This document shows positions 16,877 to 23,480 of a DNA stretch of 49,987 nucleotides, in pieces. Made by a program: the position numbers and the translations under genes. Source of the DNA: Candidatus Nanoarchaeia archaeon. Lineage in GTDB: Archaea; Nanobdellota; Nanobdellia; SCGC-AAA011-G17; JACPNG01. The stretch is from the NCBI GenBank assembly GCA_028713535.1, contig JAQTOC010000007.1, forward strand, positions 1 through 49,987. Direction: 5' to 3'. Positions within the stretch are counted from its first letter, which is position 1. The number at the start of each line of letters is the position of its first letter. The notes beneath the pieces were generated by a model that did no database searches, had not been told where the DNA came from, and was given only the letters and a program-made list of their open reading frames with translations.

Positions 16877-17890
16877 TTACTTATACCTTTCCTGCAAAAA
16901 AATATCCACGAGTAATTCTAATAAAGCCAGAATTAATGGGCCTAAAATAATGCCAATAAATCCAAACAAGAATACCCCCCCAAAACCTCCAACCAAAACA
17001 AGTGCTGGGTGTATGTTTGACTTGTCTCCAAGTATCTTTGGCTTTATTATGAGATCCAATAAAATATAAAGCAAAATAAAGCACACAACCGTCAGTAAAA
17101 TTCCTCCAGTCACATTCCCTTTTGAAATTTCAATTAAAACAACAGGAATCCAAACCAAAGCAGGTCCAACCAACGGCAAAACCGCAAATAAAAATGTTAA
17201 AAATCCAAATAGGAATATAGACCCTATGCTTGTCAAGCCAATAAGATTAAACACAAAAAATAAAATACAAACAGCAATCGCCTGCAAAAGAGCAACAAGA
17301 ATTAATCCAAAGAAGAATCCATCCAGAGTCATCTTTGATTTTTCAAATAGTTTTTCCTTGTAATCTTCCCTGAGAGGCAGTATTTCCTTGAATCTCTTAA
17401 TTAATTTTTCTCCATTCATAAGAGTAAAGAACATGACAAATAACAAGATAAAAACATTCAGAATCTGTCTTAATAAAGATCCGATGAATGAAGCAGAAGA
17501 GTCAACAAGGAATTTTAAAAAGCCCTGGAATCCAGAATGGAAATATGAGATTATTGCTGGGTTATTGAATATATTATTTAAAAAACTCCAGTCAGTCCCC
17601 TTCAAAAATTCAAAAACATCGTATATTTCCTCAGACAAGCTTAATAAACCAAAAAACAAAGGCACAACAATGACAATGATTGCCAGTAAGATTGTAACTA
17701 AAGCAGAGGCATCCTCCCTTTTTATCCATTTCTTGATTAATTTATACACAGGATATAAAAAATAAGACAGTACAAATGCAGCAAGCATGGTTACCAAAAA
17801 TGGCTTTACAATCAAAAAAGATAGATACAAAACTAACACAAAAACAAACAAAAACAAATACCAATGCCTGTTTTTTAGCTCCTGATCCAT
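16877..17890 (-). CDS. AI-2E/PerM family membrane protein
   Basis: There are seven to eight hydrophobic segments with a central soluble stretch. The ending GGFGGVFLFGFIGIILGP is the family signature. Relatives have been linked to autoinducer-2 export and to Na+/H+ exchange, so the substrate is uncertain. I take the ATG at 17890 (337 residues) rather than the track's GTG at 17905, because a minus-strand TATA (TTTATATAG, 17912-17920) lies about 27 bases upstream of this ATG. It is a single-gene unit divergent from the retropepsin-RimK pair. Confidence 0.9.
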   Translation of the reverse strand: MDQELKNRHWYLFLFVFVLVLYLSFLIVKPFLVTMLAAFVLSYFLYPVYKLIKKWIKREDASALVTILLAIIVIVVPLFFGLLSLSEEIYDVFEFLKGTDWSFLNNIFNNPAIISYFHSGFQGFLKFLVDSSASFIGSLLRQILNVFILLFVMFFTLMNGEKLIKRFKEILPLREDYKEKLFEKSKMTLDGFFFGLILVALLQAIAVCILFFVFNLIGLTSIGSIFLFGFLTFLFAVLPLVGPALVWIPVVLIEISKGNVTGGILLTVVCFILLYILLDLIIKPKILGDKSNIHPALVLVGGFGGVFLFGFIGIILGPLILALLELLVDIFLQERYK

Positions 17891-17911
17891 GCCTTTAAAA
17901 TACACATCAAA

Positions 17912-17920
17912 CTATATAAA
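17912..17920 (-). promoter_or_regulatory. TATA box of the AI-2E family gene
   Basis: The minus strand reads TTTATATAG, centred near 17917 and 27 bases before the ATG at 17890. It decides that start codon. Confidence 0.65.
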
Positions 17921-17942
17921 ATTTTGCTAATAAAAGAAAAAC

Positions 17943-17952
17943 CTTAAAAATA
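17943..17952 (+). promoter_or_regulatory. BRE/TATA of the retropepsin-RimK operon
   Basis: CTTAAAAATA, preceded by the purine stretch GAAAAAC, is centred about 25 bases before the ATG at 17973. Confidence 0.55.
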
Positions 17953-17972
17953 ATGTTCAGCCCTTAATATGC

Positions 17973-18308
17973 ATGGAAAAAACCATTGTAGGCATAATTG
18001 AAGATGTCACGTTAATAGGAAAGAACAAAAGGCAGACATTTAAAGCCAAAATTGATACTGGAGCAACAAGAAGCTCGATGGACCTTAAGATAGCAACAGA
18101 TCTTAAACTTGAATTAACAGAAACAGTAACGATAAAGTCAGCAGAAGGAAGCTCAACAAGGGGCATTGTCATGGCCAAGGTAATTATCTCAGGCCGGGAA
18201 CTAGAAGCAGAGTTTACAATAGCAAACAGGTCTAAGATGAGCTGCCCAGTCCTGATAGGCAGAAATATTCTAAAGGAAAATTTTCTTGTGGATCCAAGCA
18301 GAGAATGA
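17973..18308 (+). CDS. Retropepsin-like aspartic protease (RimB/PF05618-like)
   Basis: The 111-residue protein has the aspartic-protease half-site AKIDTGATRSSMDL near residue 28. Its ending, CPVLIGRNILKENFLVDPSRE, is the hallmark of the RimB-type 'ATP-dependent zinc protease' family, which is really retropepsin-like. As one half-site is present, it should work as a dimer. Its stop overlaps the RimK-like ATG by four bases, so the two are coupled. In bacteria such proteases trim the glutamate tails that RimK adds. A leaderless promoter precedes it. It has no signal peptide and is likely cytoplasmic. Confidence 0.85.
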   Translation: MEKTIVGIIEDVTLIGKNKRQTFKAKIDTGATRSSMDLKIATDLKLELTETVTIKSAEGSSTRGIVMAKVIISGRELEAEFTIANRSKMSCPVLIGRNILKENFLVDPSRE

Positions 18309-19366
18309 AACTAGCAGTGATAAGTTTGGGAGGGAAAAGCAGCATTGAAATAGTCAAATATGCAAAAGAATATTTTGATGAGGCAGAAAACATAGACCTA
18401 AGAAAAATAGCAGTCAACATAACCCCCCAAGGATCAAAAGTATTTTATGAAGCTCAGCCTTTGAAAGAATATGACTGCATTTATATAAGGGGTTCTTTCA
18501 GGTATGCATTATCACAAAAAGCAATAACTCATGCATTAGAAGGAAAATGCTACATGCCCATAAGCTCAGATGCTTTTATTTATGCTCATGACAAGTTCTT
18601 GACAACGATTCCATTGGAAAAAAACAAGGTGGAGTTTCCAGGAACTTATTTATGCTCCACAACCGAAGAATCAAAAAAATTGCTTGAAAGAGTGAACTAT
18701 CCGATTATAATAAAAATACCCTCAGGCACCCAGGGAAAGGGAGTTTTATTTGCAGATTCTCCAGAATCAGGAAAATCAATACTCGATACCCTTGAAATAT
18801 TCAACCAGTCCAACCTCATTCAGGAATACATTGAGACAAATGGCACAGACCTAAGAATAATTGTTGGCGGTGAAAAAGTTTTAGCCTCGATGAAGAGAAA
18901 AGCTCCGCTGCAGGAGATAAGGGCAAACATTCATTCAGGGGGTATGGGAGAAAAAGTTGAGATAACCGAAGACATAAGAGACCTAGCGATAAGGGCATCT
19001 CAGGCAATAAAAGCAGAACTATGCGCAATAGATATTCTTCAAGCAGGAATAAGAAATTATGTTCTTGAAATAAACTTGTCTCCTGGGTTGGACGGAATAA
19101 GCAATGCAATTGGAAAAAGGGTCGCAGAAGATGTAGCAAAGTTTCTTGCAAAAAAAACAAAAGAATACCTCGAAAAGAAAGAAAAAATTAAGGCAGGAGA
19201 ATCAACCGAAGATCCAGAAGAACGAAGGGAGATAATTACAAACCTAAAAATAAAGGAAGGCGTCATTAAACTACCTCAGGTTGTAACAAAACTAACTGGT
19301 CTGCTAAATAATGATGAAGTAAACATAATAACTAAGAAAGGTAAAGTAATAATCAAAAAATCCTGA
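18305..19366 (+). CDS. RimK-like ATP-grasp ligase
   Basis: The ATP-grasp core is clear: IIIKIPSGTQGKGVLFAD (ATP loop), LIQEYIETNGTDLRIIVGG, and metal-binding VLEINLSPGLDGI. It ends the core near residue 285. A C-terminal tail of about 65 residues with GVIKLPQVVTKLTGLL is extra and of unknown role. RimK-type enzymes add glutamate or other amino acids to ribosomal protein S6, cofactors or LysW-like carriers. The target here is open. The overlapping retropepsin-like gene suggests a paired add/trim system. Confidence 0.9.
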   Translation: MKLAVISLGGKSSIEIVKYAKEYFDEAENIDLRKIAVNITPQGSKVFYEAQPLKEYDCIYIRGSFRYALSQKAITHALEGKCYMPISSDAFIYAHDKFLTTIPLEKNKVEFPGTYLCSTTEESKKLLERVNYPIIIKIPSGTQGKGVLFADSPESGKSILDTLEIFNQSNLIQEYIETNGTDLRIIVGGEKVLASMKRKAPLQEIRANIHSGGMGEKVEITEDIRDLAIRASQAIKAELCAIDILQAGIRNYVLEINLSPGLDGISNAIGKRVAEDVAKFLAKKTKEYLEKKEKIKAGESTEDPEERREIITNLKIKEGVIKLPQVVTKLTGLLNNDEVNIITKKGKVIIKKS

Positions 19367-19953: not shown

Positions 19954-20244
19954 TTATTCTTCTTCATTCATGTTCTCACTAAGCCTGTTTTTGTATATTT
20001 CTGCGTGGTCCTCTGAGCAGAATCTATAAACTTTTCCATTGATTTCCTCTTCAACAAAATCAACATCAAGAACAGCCCTGCATAAAGCACACTTTGCAGC
20101 TCTTTCGCCTTCATTGTATCCCTGCATAAATCCGTCTTCAAACCCTTCTAATTCATCCTCTTCAACCATCTCTTCTCTGTCTTCTCCGTCATAAATGTTG
20201 TCGCCTTCAGGCTCATCATCAACCTTTTTATATTTGCTTTTCAT
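19954..20244 (-). CDS. Acidic protein with TRASH-like zinc finger (96 aa)
   Basis: An acidic N-terminal half (EEMVEEDELEGFEDGF) precedes a possible zinc finger: CALC, then 20 residues to FCSEDH. The spacing C-x20-C-x3-H fits the TRASH/MYM-type treble clef, a metal-sensing or metal-handling motif. No DNA-binding domain is attached. Its own TATA (AATTTTAAATAC, minus, about 20266-20277) is 27 bases before the ATG and overlaps the end of the RuBisCO gene. It therefore has its own promoter, although it follows that operon on the same strand. Confidence 0.75.
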   Translation of the reverse strand: MKSKYKKVDDEPEGDNIYDGEDREEMVEEDELEGFEDGFMQGYNEGERAAKCALCRAVLDVDFVEEEINGKVYRFCSEDHAEIYKNRLSENMNEEE

Positions 20245-20278: not shown

Positions 20279-21538
20279 CTAAACTAGGCCCCATGTTTCT
20301 ATGGCTTTTGCAAGCTCGTTCCTGGTCTTGGCATACTCTTTTAAAGGAACTTTATTAAGGTAGGCATCTAAAGCCTGTCTTACAGCAGTAGACCCTGCCC
20401 TTGTGCCCCAAGGATGAGCATGTATTCCGCCTCCAAAATTGCAAACAACGTCTTTTCCCATCCTGTCTATTACCTTTCCAATAGAACAGGGCTGCAATCC
20501 CCCAGAAGCAACAGCAAGGACTCTTCTTGTATTATACCATTCCTGCTCAAATAAATGATCTTGTTTTTTAGTTTTTCTAGATTCAATTTCTCTCTCAGAG
20601 TATACTGTCTCTGAGATGCTTACTCCCATCTTTCCAACCATCGCAGTTCCGATATGTAAAGTATCAACTCCAATCATCCTAAAAATCTTGGACAGCATAG
20701 GCATTGTTATTCCTATTCTTTCAGACTTAGTCAATGCAGCATGCATGGCCCTATGTGCATGTATTGGTAACCTTATGTTCTTCCTTAATGTATGAACAGC
20801 AGCGAACCCCGAAGTCAAAACATCAATCATAACATAATTTCCTCCGTTATTACTTACATACTCAGCTCGTTTAAGCATCTCAAGGGTTTCAGCAGTGACA
20901 TTTGGCATATACAATTTAACCTCTCCGGTTTCTTTTTCTGCCTTTTCTCTTGCCTTTAATGTTACATCAACCCTCTTCTTGAATTTGTTAAATTTCATGC
21001 TTGTTAAATTCTCATCATCCTTTACAGTATCACATCCTCCAACCCAAGCCTCATACGCAACTCCTGCATGTTGCTTTGCATTTAATCCAAGTTTTGGTTT
21101 TATTATAGCTCCAACAAAGGGTCTGTCCCTTACTTTGGTTAGCTTCCTGATTCCCTCTACTCCATATCTTGGCCCGTCAAAACTCTTGATAATCTCTCTT
21201 GGAAATTTTATGTCAATCAATCTTAAATTCCCAACCATCTTCAAGCCAAAAACATTCCCAGCCAAGCTGGAAAGAATCTGAGACATATTTCCTTTTTCAA
21301 ATAATTCAGGATGATACGCAATCTTAACATAATTATTTTTTAAATAATAAACATTTGGCTTTAATTTTTTGAAAATGCCTGGGCTTAATGTTTTAATGTC
21401 TGTCCATGTGTCAATACTGCTTTCCCCAGCAAGGTTATTTGCAATTTCTTTGATGCTGGCTTTGCCTCCAGTGATATGATAACAAGCTAAAACCTCTCTT
21501 CTCCTTGGTTTATAATCAAGATTGATATAATCCCTCAC
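20279..21538 (-). CDS. rbcL: Form III ribulose-bisphosphate carboxylase (RuBisCO) large subunit
   Basis: All catalytic elements are visible. ESSIDTWT supplies the Glu/Thr pair and GNVFG the Asn. IIKPKLG is near residue 148, and the carbamylated Lys is in VKDDEN near 173. HAHRAMH, the loop-6 Lys in MVGKM near 302, SGGLQP and GGGIHAHPWG follow. At 419 residues with no small-subunit gene, it fits archaeal form III, which turns RuBP from nucleotide breakdown plus CO2 into two 3-phosphoglycerates. The start is GTG, fixed by a strong Shine-Dalgarno GAGGTGA six bases upstream. It is the last gene of an operon beginning with the RuBP-forming isomerase. Confidence 0.95.
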   Translation of the reverse strand: MRDYINLDYKPRRREVLACYHITGGKASIKEIANNLAGESSIDTWTDIKTLSPGIFKKLKPNVYYLKNNYVKIAYHPELFEKGNMSQILSSLAGNVFGLKMVGNLRLIDIKFPREIIKSFDGPRYGVEGIRKLTKVRDRPFVGAIIKPKLGLNAKQHAGVAYEAWVGGCDTVKDDENLTSMKFNKFKKRVDVTLKAREKAEKETGEVKLYMPNVTAETLEMLKRAEYVSNNGGNYVMIDVLTSGFAAVHTLRKNIRLPIHAHRAMHAALTKSERIGITMPMLSKIFRMIGVDTLHIGTAMVGKMGVSISETVYSEREIESRKTKKQDHLFEQEWYNTRRVLAVASGGLQPCSIGKVIDRMGKDVVCNFGGGIHAHPWGTRAGSTAVRQALDAYLNKVPLKEYAKTRNELAKAIETWGLV

Positions 21539-21968
21539 TTTGGTTCACCTCTTTCGCCTTGTTATTTTCCATAACAAAGTAATAATCAGCTAAACTACTT
21601 TCCTGACAGTTCCCTGTACTGTCATTTACAGACCCAGCAATACATAAACCTTTGCACTCACCCGAGTCCATGCATGTTTTGTTTGCATCCTCATAAGTAT
21701 AATTACATTTATTTATGCTTTCCATCCATACTCCTTTCTTTGCCATGCAGTCAGCCTCAAGCAATATCTCCCCTTTCTCAGTTGCATAGTCCTTTACATT
21801 ATCAACCTTTGAATTAAGATTGAGAATATCAAAATTAAATACAGTAAAAACTATAGCAATTAAAACTGCCAGCACAATAAATTTCATTATGAACTTTGAT
21901 ATCTTTACAACAAGAAGGATTAAGAGGACCACTACAGCTAAAACAACCAGGCTTAAACTAAGACTCAT
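21516..21968 (-). CDS. Membrane-anchored cysteine-containing protein in the RuBisCO operon
   Basis: Two close hydrophobic segments fill about residues 4-45. An ectodomain follows with five to six cysteines (EADCMAKKGVW, KCNYTYED, TCMDSGECKGLC, GNCQES). The repeat-like C-x6-10-C spacing suggests disulfides. I recognise no family. It overlaps the HAD gene upstream by 11 bases and RuBisCO downstream by 23 bases, so it is made from the same mRNA. A GAGGA site lies nine bases before its ATG. Why an extracytoplasmic protein sits in a nucleotide-salvage operon is not clear. Confidence 0.75.
   Translation of the reverse strand: MSLSLSLVVLAVVVLLILLVVKISKFIMKFIVLAVLIAIVFTVFNFDILNLNSKVDNVKDYATEKGEILLEADCMAKKGVWMESINKCNYTYEDANKTCMDSGECKGLCIAGSVNDSTGNCQESSLADYYFVMENNKAKEVNQSEGLYQS
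21545..21551 (-). promoter_or_regulatory. Shine-Dalgarno site of rbcL
   Basis: GAGGTGA on the minus strand, inside the upstream gene, lies six bases before a GTG. It is the best match to the archaeal 16S tail in this window and decides the rbcL start. Confidence 0.8.
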
Positions 21969-22620
21969 TTTCTATTTTCCTCAATAATCTTGGCAAATAC
22001 CTCACCGATTTTATAATATAATCTGGTTTTTTCTGTTTTAATACCTTTCTAGAGAAGTGCCCAGTCAACACAGCTATGCTTTTTACCTTGGCTCTCTTAG
22101 CAGCAATGATATCATAAATAGAGTCTCCTATAACATAATCTGCTTTTACATGGGCAATCTTGCTTGCTTTCCTTATTTCAGCAGGGTTCGGTTTTGACAG
22201 TCTTACATCATCATTGCCGACAACAATATTGATTAATTTTGTATCAATGCCAGCATTTTTCAATAAAGTCAGGATTGTCTTGTGTGAACAGTTAGATGTA
22301 ACCGCAAGCCTGTATTTCTTGCTCAATTTTCTTAAGGCCATTTTAATTCCAAACAAAGCCTTGGTTGTATTCCCATACTTATTTTTAATTACCAATTCAG
22401 CCTGCAAATCATTTACTTTATCATAGATCTTTTTGTCTTTCCCATAGCCAATAATTTCTCTTACAACCTGCTCTTTTGGCATTCCCATCAACCGAAGAAA
22501 CTTCCAGTAACTTATTCTTTTAAACCCGTATTTTTCAACTGCATCCATATAAGAATAAAAATGAGCTTTGTCAGAGTTTACCAAAGTATTGTCCAAGTCA
22601 AAGCATATCAGTTTTTTCAT
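21958..22620 (-). CDS. HAD superfamily phosphatase (phosphoglycolate phosphatase-like)
   Basis: All four HAD motifs are present: FDLDNTLVNS with the nucleophile Asp, TSNCSH, the Lys in LSKPNP, and VIGDSIYDI. A helical cap lies between motifs 1 and 2, as in the Gph/PGMB subgroup. I begin at the ATG encoding MKKLICFDLD, one base after the isomerase stop. The track's longer start would overlap the isomerase by 47 bases. Its place between the RuBP-forming isomerase and RuBisCO suggests it works on 2-phosphoglycolate, or on a sugar or nucleotide phosphate of that route. That is inference. Confidence 0.85.
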   Translation of the reverse strand: MKKLICFDLDNTLVNSDKAHFYSYMDAVEKYGFKRISYWKFLRLMGMPKEQVVREIIGYGKDKKIYDKVNDLQAELVIKNKYGNTTKALFGIKMALRKLSKKYRLAVTSNCSHKTILTLLKNAGIDTKLINIVVGNDDVRLSKPNPAEIRKASKIAHVKADYVIGDSIYDIIAAKRAKVKSIAVLTGHFSRKVLKQKKPDYIIKSVRYLPRLLRKIENES

Positions 22621-22621
22621 A

Positions 22622-23446
22622 TTAAAATATCTCAGGGTATCTCTTTTTAATTTCCCGTATAAAGCCATTAATATTATACACTCCCAGCTCAGAGATTATC
22701 CCAGTTATTAATTCTGGATTAATAAACTCAAAGCAGGGATTTTTAACATCAATATACTTATTCTCAACATCCCAAACCTCTTTCTTCTTTCTCTCCTCTA
22801 TCTTTTCTTCAAATCCTTTTATTGTGTCTGGATCAAACTTCCATGAATGTGTACAAACATAAACAGGAATCCCTCTTTTCTTTGCTATCTCGCAGAACAT
22901 CTCGCTTCCTATCTTATTAACTATTTTGCCTTCAGATGTAATTGCATCAGCGCCGATAAGCATTATGTCTGCTTTTTTTAGTGCAAGCCTGCCTGCAGAG
23001 TCAATATAATGCTCTACATGAATCTTGTTCCTTGCCAGCTCCAATGCAGTCCTTCTTCCCTGAAACCTTGGCCTTGTTTCTGTATTATGAACGGTAAAAT
23101 GTTTTTTTCTTCTCTTTGCTTCTTTTAGAATATTAACAACAGTGTTTGCGTGGCAATGAGTAAAAATAATATAGTTACTTTGAATTTTGTTTGCTCCCAG
23201 ATATGTAATCTTTTTCAGGTCTTTGTCTATCTTATTAAAAAACAATCTTGAGTTTTTCTTTGGGTTTGCCTTTACAAATTTCAAGGCATTTCTCAAAAAT
23301 GGTTCTGTAGGCCTCAATGATATTAATTTTTTATATGAAGAATTTGTCATCTTCAGCATGTAAGCCCTAACCGCCCAGACAGCAACATTAGTAGCTCCCT
23401 GAATTTTTAAAGATTTAATCCCTCTTACAATTTCCCCAAAACCCAT
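22622..23446 (-). CDS. Ribose-1,5-bisphosphate isomerase (archaeal eIF2B-like)
   Basis: The protein belongs to the eIF2B-alpha/MtnA/R15P isomerase superfamily. IKSLKIQGATNVA opens it. FTHCHANTV supplies the presumed catalytic Cys near residue 96 and IGADAI the Asp near 165, with NTETRPRFQG between them. NPCFEFINPELITGII near the end also matches archaeal R15P isomerases. The enzyme turns ribose-1,5-bisphosphate into RuBP, the RuBisCO substrate. It heads the operon that ends with RuBisCO, which favours this over an initiation-factor role. At 274 residues it is shorter at the N-terminus than the roughly 320-residue Thermococcus enzyme. Confidence 0.88.
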   Translation of the reverse strand: MGFGEIVRGIKSLKIQGATNVAVWAVRAYMLKMTNSSYKKLISLRPTEPFLRNALKFVKANPKKNSRLFFNKIDKDLKKITYLGANKIQSNYIIFTHCHANTVVNILKEAKRRKKHFTVHNTETRPRFQGRRTALELARNKIHVEHYIDSAGRLALKKADIMLIGADAITSEGKIVNKIGSEMFCEIAKKRGIPVYVCTHSWKFDPDTIKGFEEKIEERKKKEVWDVENKYIDVKNPCFEFINPELITGIISELGVYNINGFIREIKKRYPEIF

Positions 23447-23467: not shown

Positions 23468-23480
23468 TTTATAAATATTA
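23468..23480 (-). promoter_or_regulatory. TATA box of the isomerase-HAD-RuBisCO operon
   Basis: The minus strand reads TAATATTTATAAA, centred about 28 bases before the isomerase ATG. This implies a leaderless operon mRNA. Confidence 0.6.

Follow-up and report, generated by a model that had tools for sequence, protein, structure and literature searches.

Pairing of a HAD phosphatase gene with the R15P isomerase gene beside form III RuBisCO in a Candidatus Nanoarchaeia archaeon and its relatives

In archaea without a Calvin cycle, RuBisCO has so far been known mainly as the last step of a short salvage chain. The carboxylating pathway was previously reported for Thermococcus (PMC12628685), and a nucleoside degradation pathway with deoA, R15P isomerase, and form III RuBisCO was described in Woesearchaeota, which are related DPANN archaea (PMC8421398). 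The three genes of the latter are the same as those considered here, and the word "phosphatase" is absent from the main text of that paper. In haloarchaea, a HAD protein whose gene shares an operon with that of R15P isomerase acts strictly as an RuBP phosphatase and yields Ru1P (PMC9700705). HAD-IA phosphatases are also encoded with RuBisCO in the cbb operons (CbbY and CbbZ).

The window analyzed in this work is a stretch of 49,987 nucleotides from the 873-kb draft genome (91% complete) of a Candidatus Nanoarchaeia archaeon. Its minus strand carries, between positions 20279 and 23446, the genes of an R15P isomerase (22622..23446, 274 aa), a HAD-IA phosphatase with a C1 cap (21958..22620, 220 aa counted from a conserved MKK start, a longer ATG option lying at 22668), a small, lineage-specific membrane protein with a hydrophobic N-terminus and a Cys-rich tail (21516..21968, 150 aa), and a form III RuBisCO large subunit with a GTG start (20279..21538, 419 aa). 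By the ORF coordinates, the junctions within this run are a gap of 1 base followed by overlaps of 11 and 23 bases. A TATA box, TTTATAAA (23468..23475, minus strand), begins 29 bases upstream of the isomerase ATG. The box is kept at the matching place, 31 bases upstream, in the sister species G065 (L033; recorded as Candidatus Nanoarchaeia archaeon, 74% RuBisCO identity), and a comparable box was present 25–32 bases upstream in 18 of 26 loci examined, a distance which fits the expectation for a leaderless archaeal transcript. The spacing and the promoter described in an earlier note on this DNA were thereby recovered, and the four genes are probably cotranscribed.

The isomerase was assigned by its domain (PF01008, 177.6 bits), fold, and position in the tree. 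Its best NCBIfam model was TIGR00511 with 174 bits, where the cut-off of 314 is not reached and the N-terminal region is shorter, and the name R15P isomerase is used here for the closest catalytic family and does not imply a TIGR00511 equivalog. Cys98 of the THCHA motif and Asp167 of GADAI, already noticed from the sequence, were invariant in the alignment of 32 homologues; their counterparts in the Pyrococcus horikoshii enzyme are C135 and D204, which are the positions changed by mutation in 5yfs and 5yft. The predicted structure (pLDDT 93.9) gave a TM-score of 0.92 to the R15P isomerase of P. horikoshii/T. kodakarensis, against 0.83 for aIF2B and about 0.77 for human eIF2B alpha. In the tree, where 5yfj represents the P. 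horikoshii enzyme and aIF2B is absent, being compared by fold, the isomerase fell beside the R15P isomerase of P. horikoshii, and the MtnA homologues were separate (support 93). Between R15P isomerases and the aIF2B/MtnA proteins, the alternative that the earlier note had raised against its own reading, both the tree (for MtnA) and the TM-score (for aIF2B) favour the former. It is the sole IF-2B-family protein found in the source genome. Several members of the order carry a second one (L138–L145), which the window's genome does not have; the seven intact copies form one clade, and L141, the only one scanned, is MtnA.

The RuBisCO, which is the only one in the source genome, is a TIGR03326 form III equivalog (510.4 bits, cut-off 497.45), also by its position in the tree. 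Its blocks with the catalytic Lys, the carbamate Lys-Asp-Glu, the His, and the loop-6 Lys align with solved form III enzymes, in agreement with the statement that the catalytic residues are kept. The AMP phosphorylase gene, which had been reported as lying outside the window, was located on another contig of the same genome (G000:C2:38522-39961). Its product scored 516 bits over the full length of TIGR03327, just under the cut-off of 535, on either side of which the scores of relatives in the order fall, and it clears the cut-offs of TIGR02645 (archaeal subfamily) and PRK04350. These family assignments bear out the proposed reading of NMP phosphorylase, R15P isomerase, and form III RuBisCO as one pathway: the NMP phosphorylase, encoded elsewhere, would make R15P, the isomerase would convert it into RuBP, and RuBisCO would combine RuBP with CO2 to give two 3-phosphoglycerates, so that nucleotide ribose would end up as a glycolysis compound. 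Thermococcus kodakarensis has the same three enzyme families (TK0352, TK0185, and TK2290; catalytic residues were checked for the isomerase and RuBisCO). By comparison with this organism, the window's isomerase is about 50 residues shorter, the AMP phosphorylase gene lies apart from the operon, and isomerase and RuBisCO share an overlapping operon with the HAD phosphatase. The core route is the known archaeal pentose bisphosphate pathway and the phosphatase is the new part.

The HAD protein (HAD_2, 107 bits) keeps the motifs of its superfamily, DxDxT, S/T, K, and D...D, which in the alignment correspond to D8, D10, S109, K143, D166, and D170. Its predicted structure (pLDDT 96.5) has as nearest solved folds uncharacterised hydrolases, predicted phosphoglycolate phosphatases, and pyrophosphatases; the XuBP phosphatase CbbY of R. 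sphaeroides (4uat) stands lower in the list, with a TM-score of 0.76. No NCBIfam equivalog cut-off is reached, the best models being phosphoglycolate phosphatase and PpaX, with 77 bits against 225 and 218, respectively; for the phosphoglycolate phosphatase models NF009695 and TIGR01449 the scores were 77 of 225 and 60 of 180 bits. In this respect, and in pairing with the isomerase, the protein differs from CbbY and CbbZ. Past motif I there is a Lys18/His20 pair, of which the Lys is conserved in 21 and the His in 22 of the 28 alignment rows. Beta-phosphoglucomutase and CbbY have a His at the matching place, which phosphoglycolate phosphatases are not known to carry; we take this as a lead only. 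In two Bathyarchaeota (L041:2165-4383 and L042:5694-7912) the AMP phosphorylase gene has a HAD gene as neighbour at a distance of 2 bases; these HADs are distant and beta-phosphoglucomutase-like, and they were left out as linkage evidence even though they are rows of the HAD alignment.

We surveyed 103 genomes of the same order, in which apparent gene absences are inflated by the incompleteness of drafts. RuBisCO was found in 51, a strong isomerase match in 49, and an orthologous HAD (at least 217 bits, or a fragment that is broken or at a contig end) in 63. Judged by match coordinates, the isomerase is followed by the HAD gene with a gap of at most 100 bases in 28 of the 45 genomes that have the two genes, belonging to 11 families, and 39 of the 45 carry both on one contig. 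For two unlinked genes in genomes of at least several hundred genes, this adjacency cannot be chance. The pair also occurs in 5 genomes from other orders of the class. The HAD gene stands directly before RuBisCO in 17 of 43 genomes; the isomerase leads directly to RuBisCO in one, G004, which has no such HAD. The usual junctions are overlaps of 4, 13, or 16 bases. The gene order, whose absence from all relatives would have spoken against the earlier note, is therefore shared by relatives, and the close packing of the phosphatase that the earlier note found unusual is conserved over much of the order. In one draft genome (G045, L079:3770-5182) isomerase and HAD form an in-frame fusion of 470 aa in which both domains are complete (residues 4–257 and 261–469) and no linker is present.

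Within families, the presence of HAD tracked that of the isomerase (p = 5e-5) and of RuBisCO (p = 4e-4), and no association was seen with AMP phosphorylase (p = 0.40); these stratified permutation values are approximate, as the genomes inside a family were treated as exchangeable. In G029, G038, and G073 isomerase and HAD are adjacent and RuBisCO is on a separate contig. An orthologous HAD is present in seventeen genomes that lack both isomerase and RuBisCO (AMP phosphorylase is missing as well from 16 of these), which rules out a strictly RuBisCO-dependent HAD. The HAD tree intermixes genomes with and without RuBisCO; taken together with the 17 genomes, this suggests that the protein serves, or is able to acquire, a further function.

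The RuBisCO gene behind the pair has been exchanged several times in relatives, as judged from trees and identities. In family f18, the RuBisCOs of G082, G083, and G085 group with that of the window and those of G084, G089, and G090 form another clade, with identities of 51–58% between the two sets and 75–90% within them. The isomerases of these six genomes form one clade (support 91, unstarred), as do their HADs (support 100), and each of the six RuBisCO genes overlaps HAD by 4 bases at its start and is preceded by a similar AGAGG stretch; between G084 and G085 the HADs are 66% identical and the RuBisCOs 55%. Two RuBisCO clades at the same overlap behind a coinherited isomerase and HAD point to replacement in place. 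In family f11, three RuBisCO clades stand behind a single isomerase clade (support 100), and the HAD of G072 also differs. Forcing the RuBisCOs together was rejected in f18 (AU p = 1.4e-10), and the AU p values in f11 were 9e-6 for RuBisCO and 0.04 for the HAD of G072, all somewhat optimistic, since both families were picked after the tree was seen. Instead of transfer, an ancient duplication followed by differential loss may lie behind this pattern; G010 and G088, each with two RuBisCOs, can be cited for it.

Taking into account the adjacency, the fusion, and the exchange of RuBisCO, the partner of the phosphatase appears to be the isomerase, and this partnership makes a pentose bisphosphate, whether RuBP, R15P, or a misformed isomer, a likelier substrate than 2-phosphoglycolate. 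We give roughly even odds (about 0.5) to an operon that serves the carboxylating pentose bisphosphate pathway and in which the HAD protein, predicted to be an active phosphatase, would work alongside the isomerase on the pentose-bisphosphate pool. There its most likely task would be to clear surplus RuBP, surplus R15P, or isomers formed in error, for instance xylulose-1,5-bisphosphate. By analogy, the strongest precedent is the haloarchaeal RuBP phosphatase (Halxa_2271/VNG_1202C; PMC9700705), likewise a HAD hydrolase genetically linked to R15P isomerase and compared here by superfamily and gene linkage; that enzyme stands in for RuBisCO and is accompanied by a class II aldolase, whereas the HAD of the window coexists with RuBisCO and no such aldolase was found. 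Two considerations weigh on such a role: in the 17 genomes without isomerase and RuBisCO the HAD protein would, at least there, act on something else, and an RuBP phosphatase would compete with RuBisCO. A phosphatase that is genetically bound to the RuBP-forming step and kept through RuBisCO exchanges suggests that pentose bisphosphates have to be kept in check or repaired, a need for which we found no report in a RuBisCO-containing archaeal route. Nor did the literature searched report a phosphatase linked to such a route, an earlier mention in Jaffe 2019 or Wrighton 2016 being possible.

A possible, still tentative, reading goes further and takes isomerase and phosphatase as an RuBP-control unit, the phosphatase draining RuBP (to Ru1P or Ru5P) or repairing misformed bisphosphates, with RuBisCO as an exchangeable downstream plug-in swapped in place several times. 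The in-place exchanges also offer natural pairs for asking which properties of RuBisCO its partners require.

It seems unlikely that the HAD is a 2-phosphoglycolate phosphatase like CbbZ/Gph, detoxifying the by-product of the RuBisCO oxygenase or, where RuBisCO is absent, 2-phosphoglycolate from DNA repair. The earlier note had suggested 2-phosphoglycolate or another by-product; such a phosphatase would account for a HAD kept without RuBisCO, and phosphoglycolate phosphatase is the joint best NCBIfam model, with the annotated or predicted phosphoglycolate phosphatases 2hsz and 2yy6 among the close folds. Against it, the score is far under the family cut-off, and pairing and fusion involve the isomerase and not RuBisCO. 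Being tied more to the isomerase than to RuBisCO and outliving both in 17 genomes, the protein would not primarily be a 2-phosphoglycolate scavenger.

Rather improbable is a housekeeping phosphatase anchored beside RimK- and DPH6-like genes, around which isomerase and RuBisCO merely lie. Many of the 17 genomes do keep the surroundings of the window (genes of the AI-2E permease-like, RimK-type ATP-grasp, and DPH6-like kinds, with a small protein encoded before RimK), so that the lone HAD has the same flanks, and the mixed HAD tree fits as well; but the pair recurs across 11 families and other orders, overlaps translationally, and is fused once, and within families HAD follows the isomerase. It is very improbable that the protein is an RuBP phosphatase feeding ribulose-1-phosphate into the haloarchaeal noncarboxylating branch, in which an aldolase yields DHAP and glycolaldehyde, alongside RuBisCO: Halxa_2271/VNG_1202C has the same genomic partner and superfamily (PMC9700705), and in G018 and G060 isomerase and HAD were found and RuBisCO was not detected, but that branch and RuBisCO are mutually exclusive in haloarchaea, and the class II aldolase (PF00596) is absent from the RuBisCO-bearing source genome and present in only 10 of the 103 genomes, which makes the complete route unlikely.

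The small Cys membrane protein does not belong to the conserved operon: it was found at this locus in 3 of the 103 genomes, all of one family (strong matches only in G000, G065, and G061), and elsewhere the gap is empty or holds unrelated genes, for which reason it was rejected as a part of the pathway. With its hydrophobic N-terminus and conserved Cys residues, it looks like a protein with an exported domain. Nothing connects it with the pathway, and it would be a recent, local passenger. In G053 (L083:7187-7928) a different Cys-rich, secreted-looking protein lies between HAD and RuBisCO, and the searches run gave no relation between it and the window's Cys protein.

Around the operon, positions 16877-19366 of the window hold the genes of an AI-2E permease-like protein, a small protein preceding RimK, and a RimK-type ATP-grasp protein, and these flanks also stay beside HAD in genomes without RuBisCO. 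The RuBisCO gene is followed by an FCS/TRASH-like zinc-finger gene (19954..20244, minus strand; zf-FCS 19.8 bits, below the cut-off of 22.4). This adjacency is kept in relatives (L046:4783-5088 and L109:5921-6178), and in G059, where isomerase, Cys protein, and RuBisCO are all absent, the zinc-finger gene stands directly after HAD.
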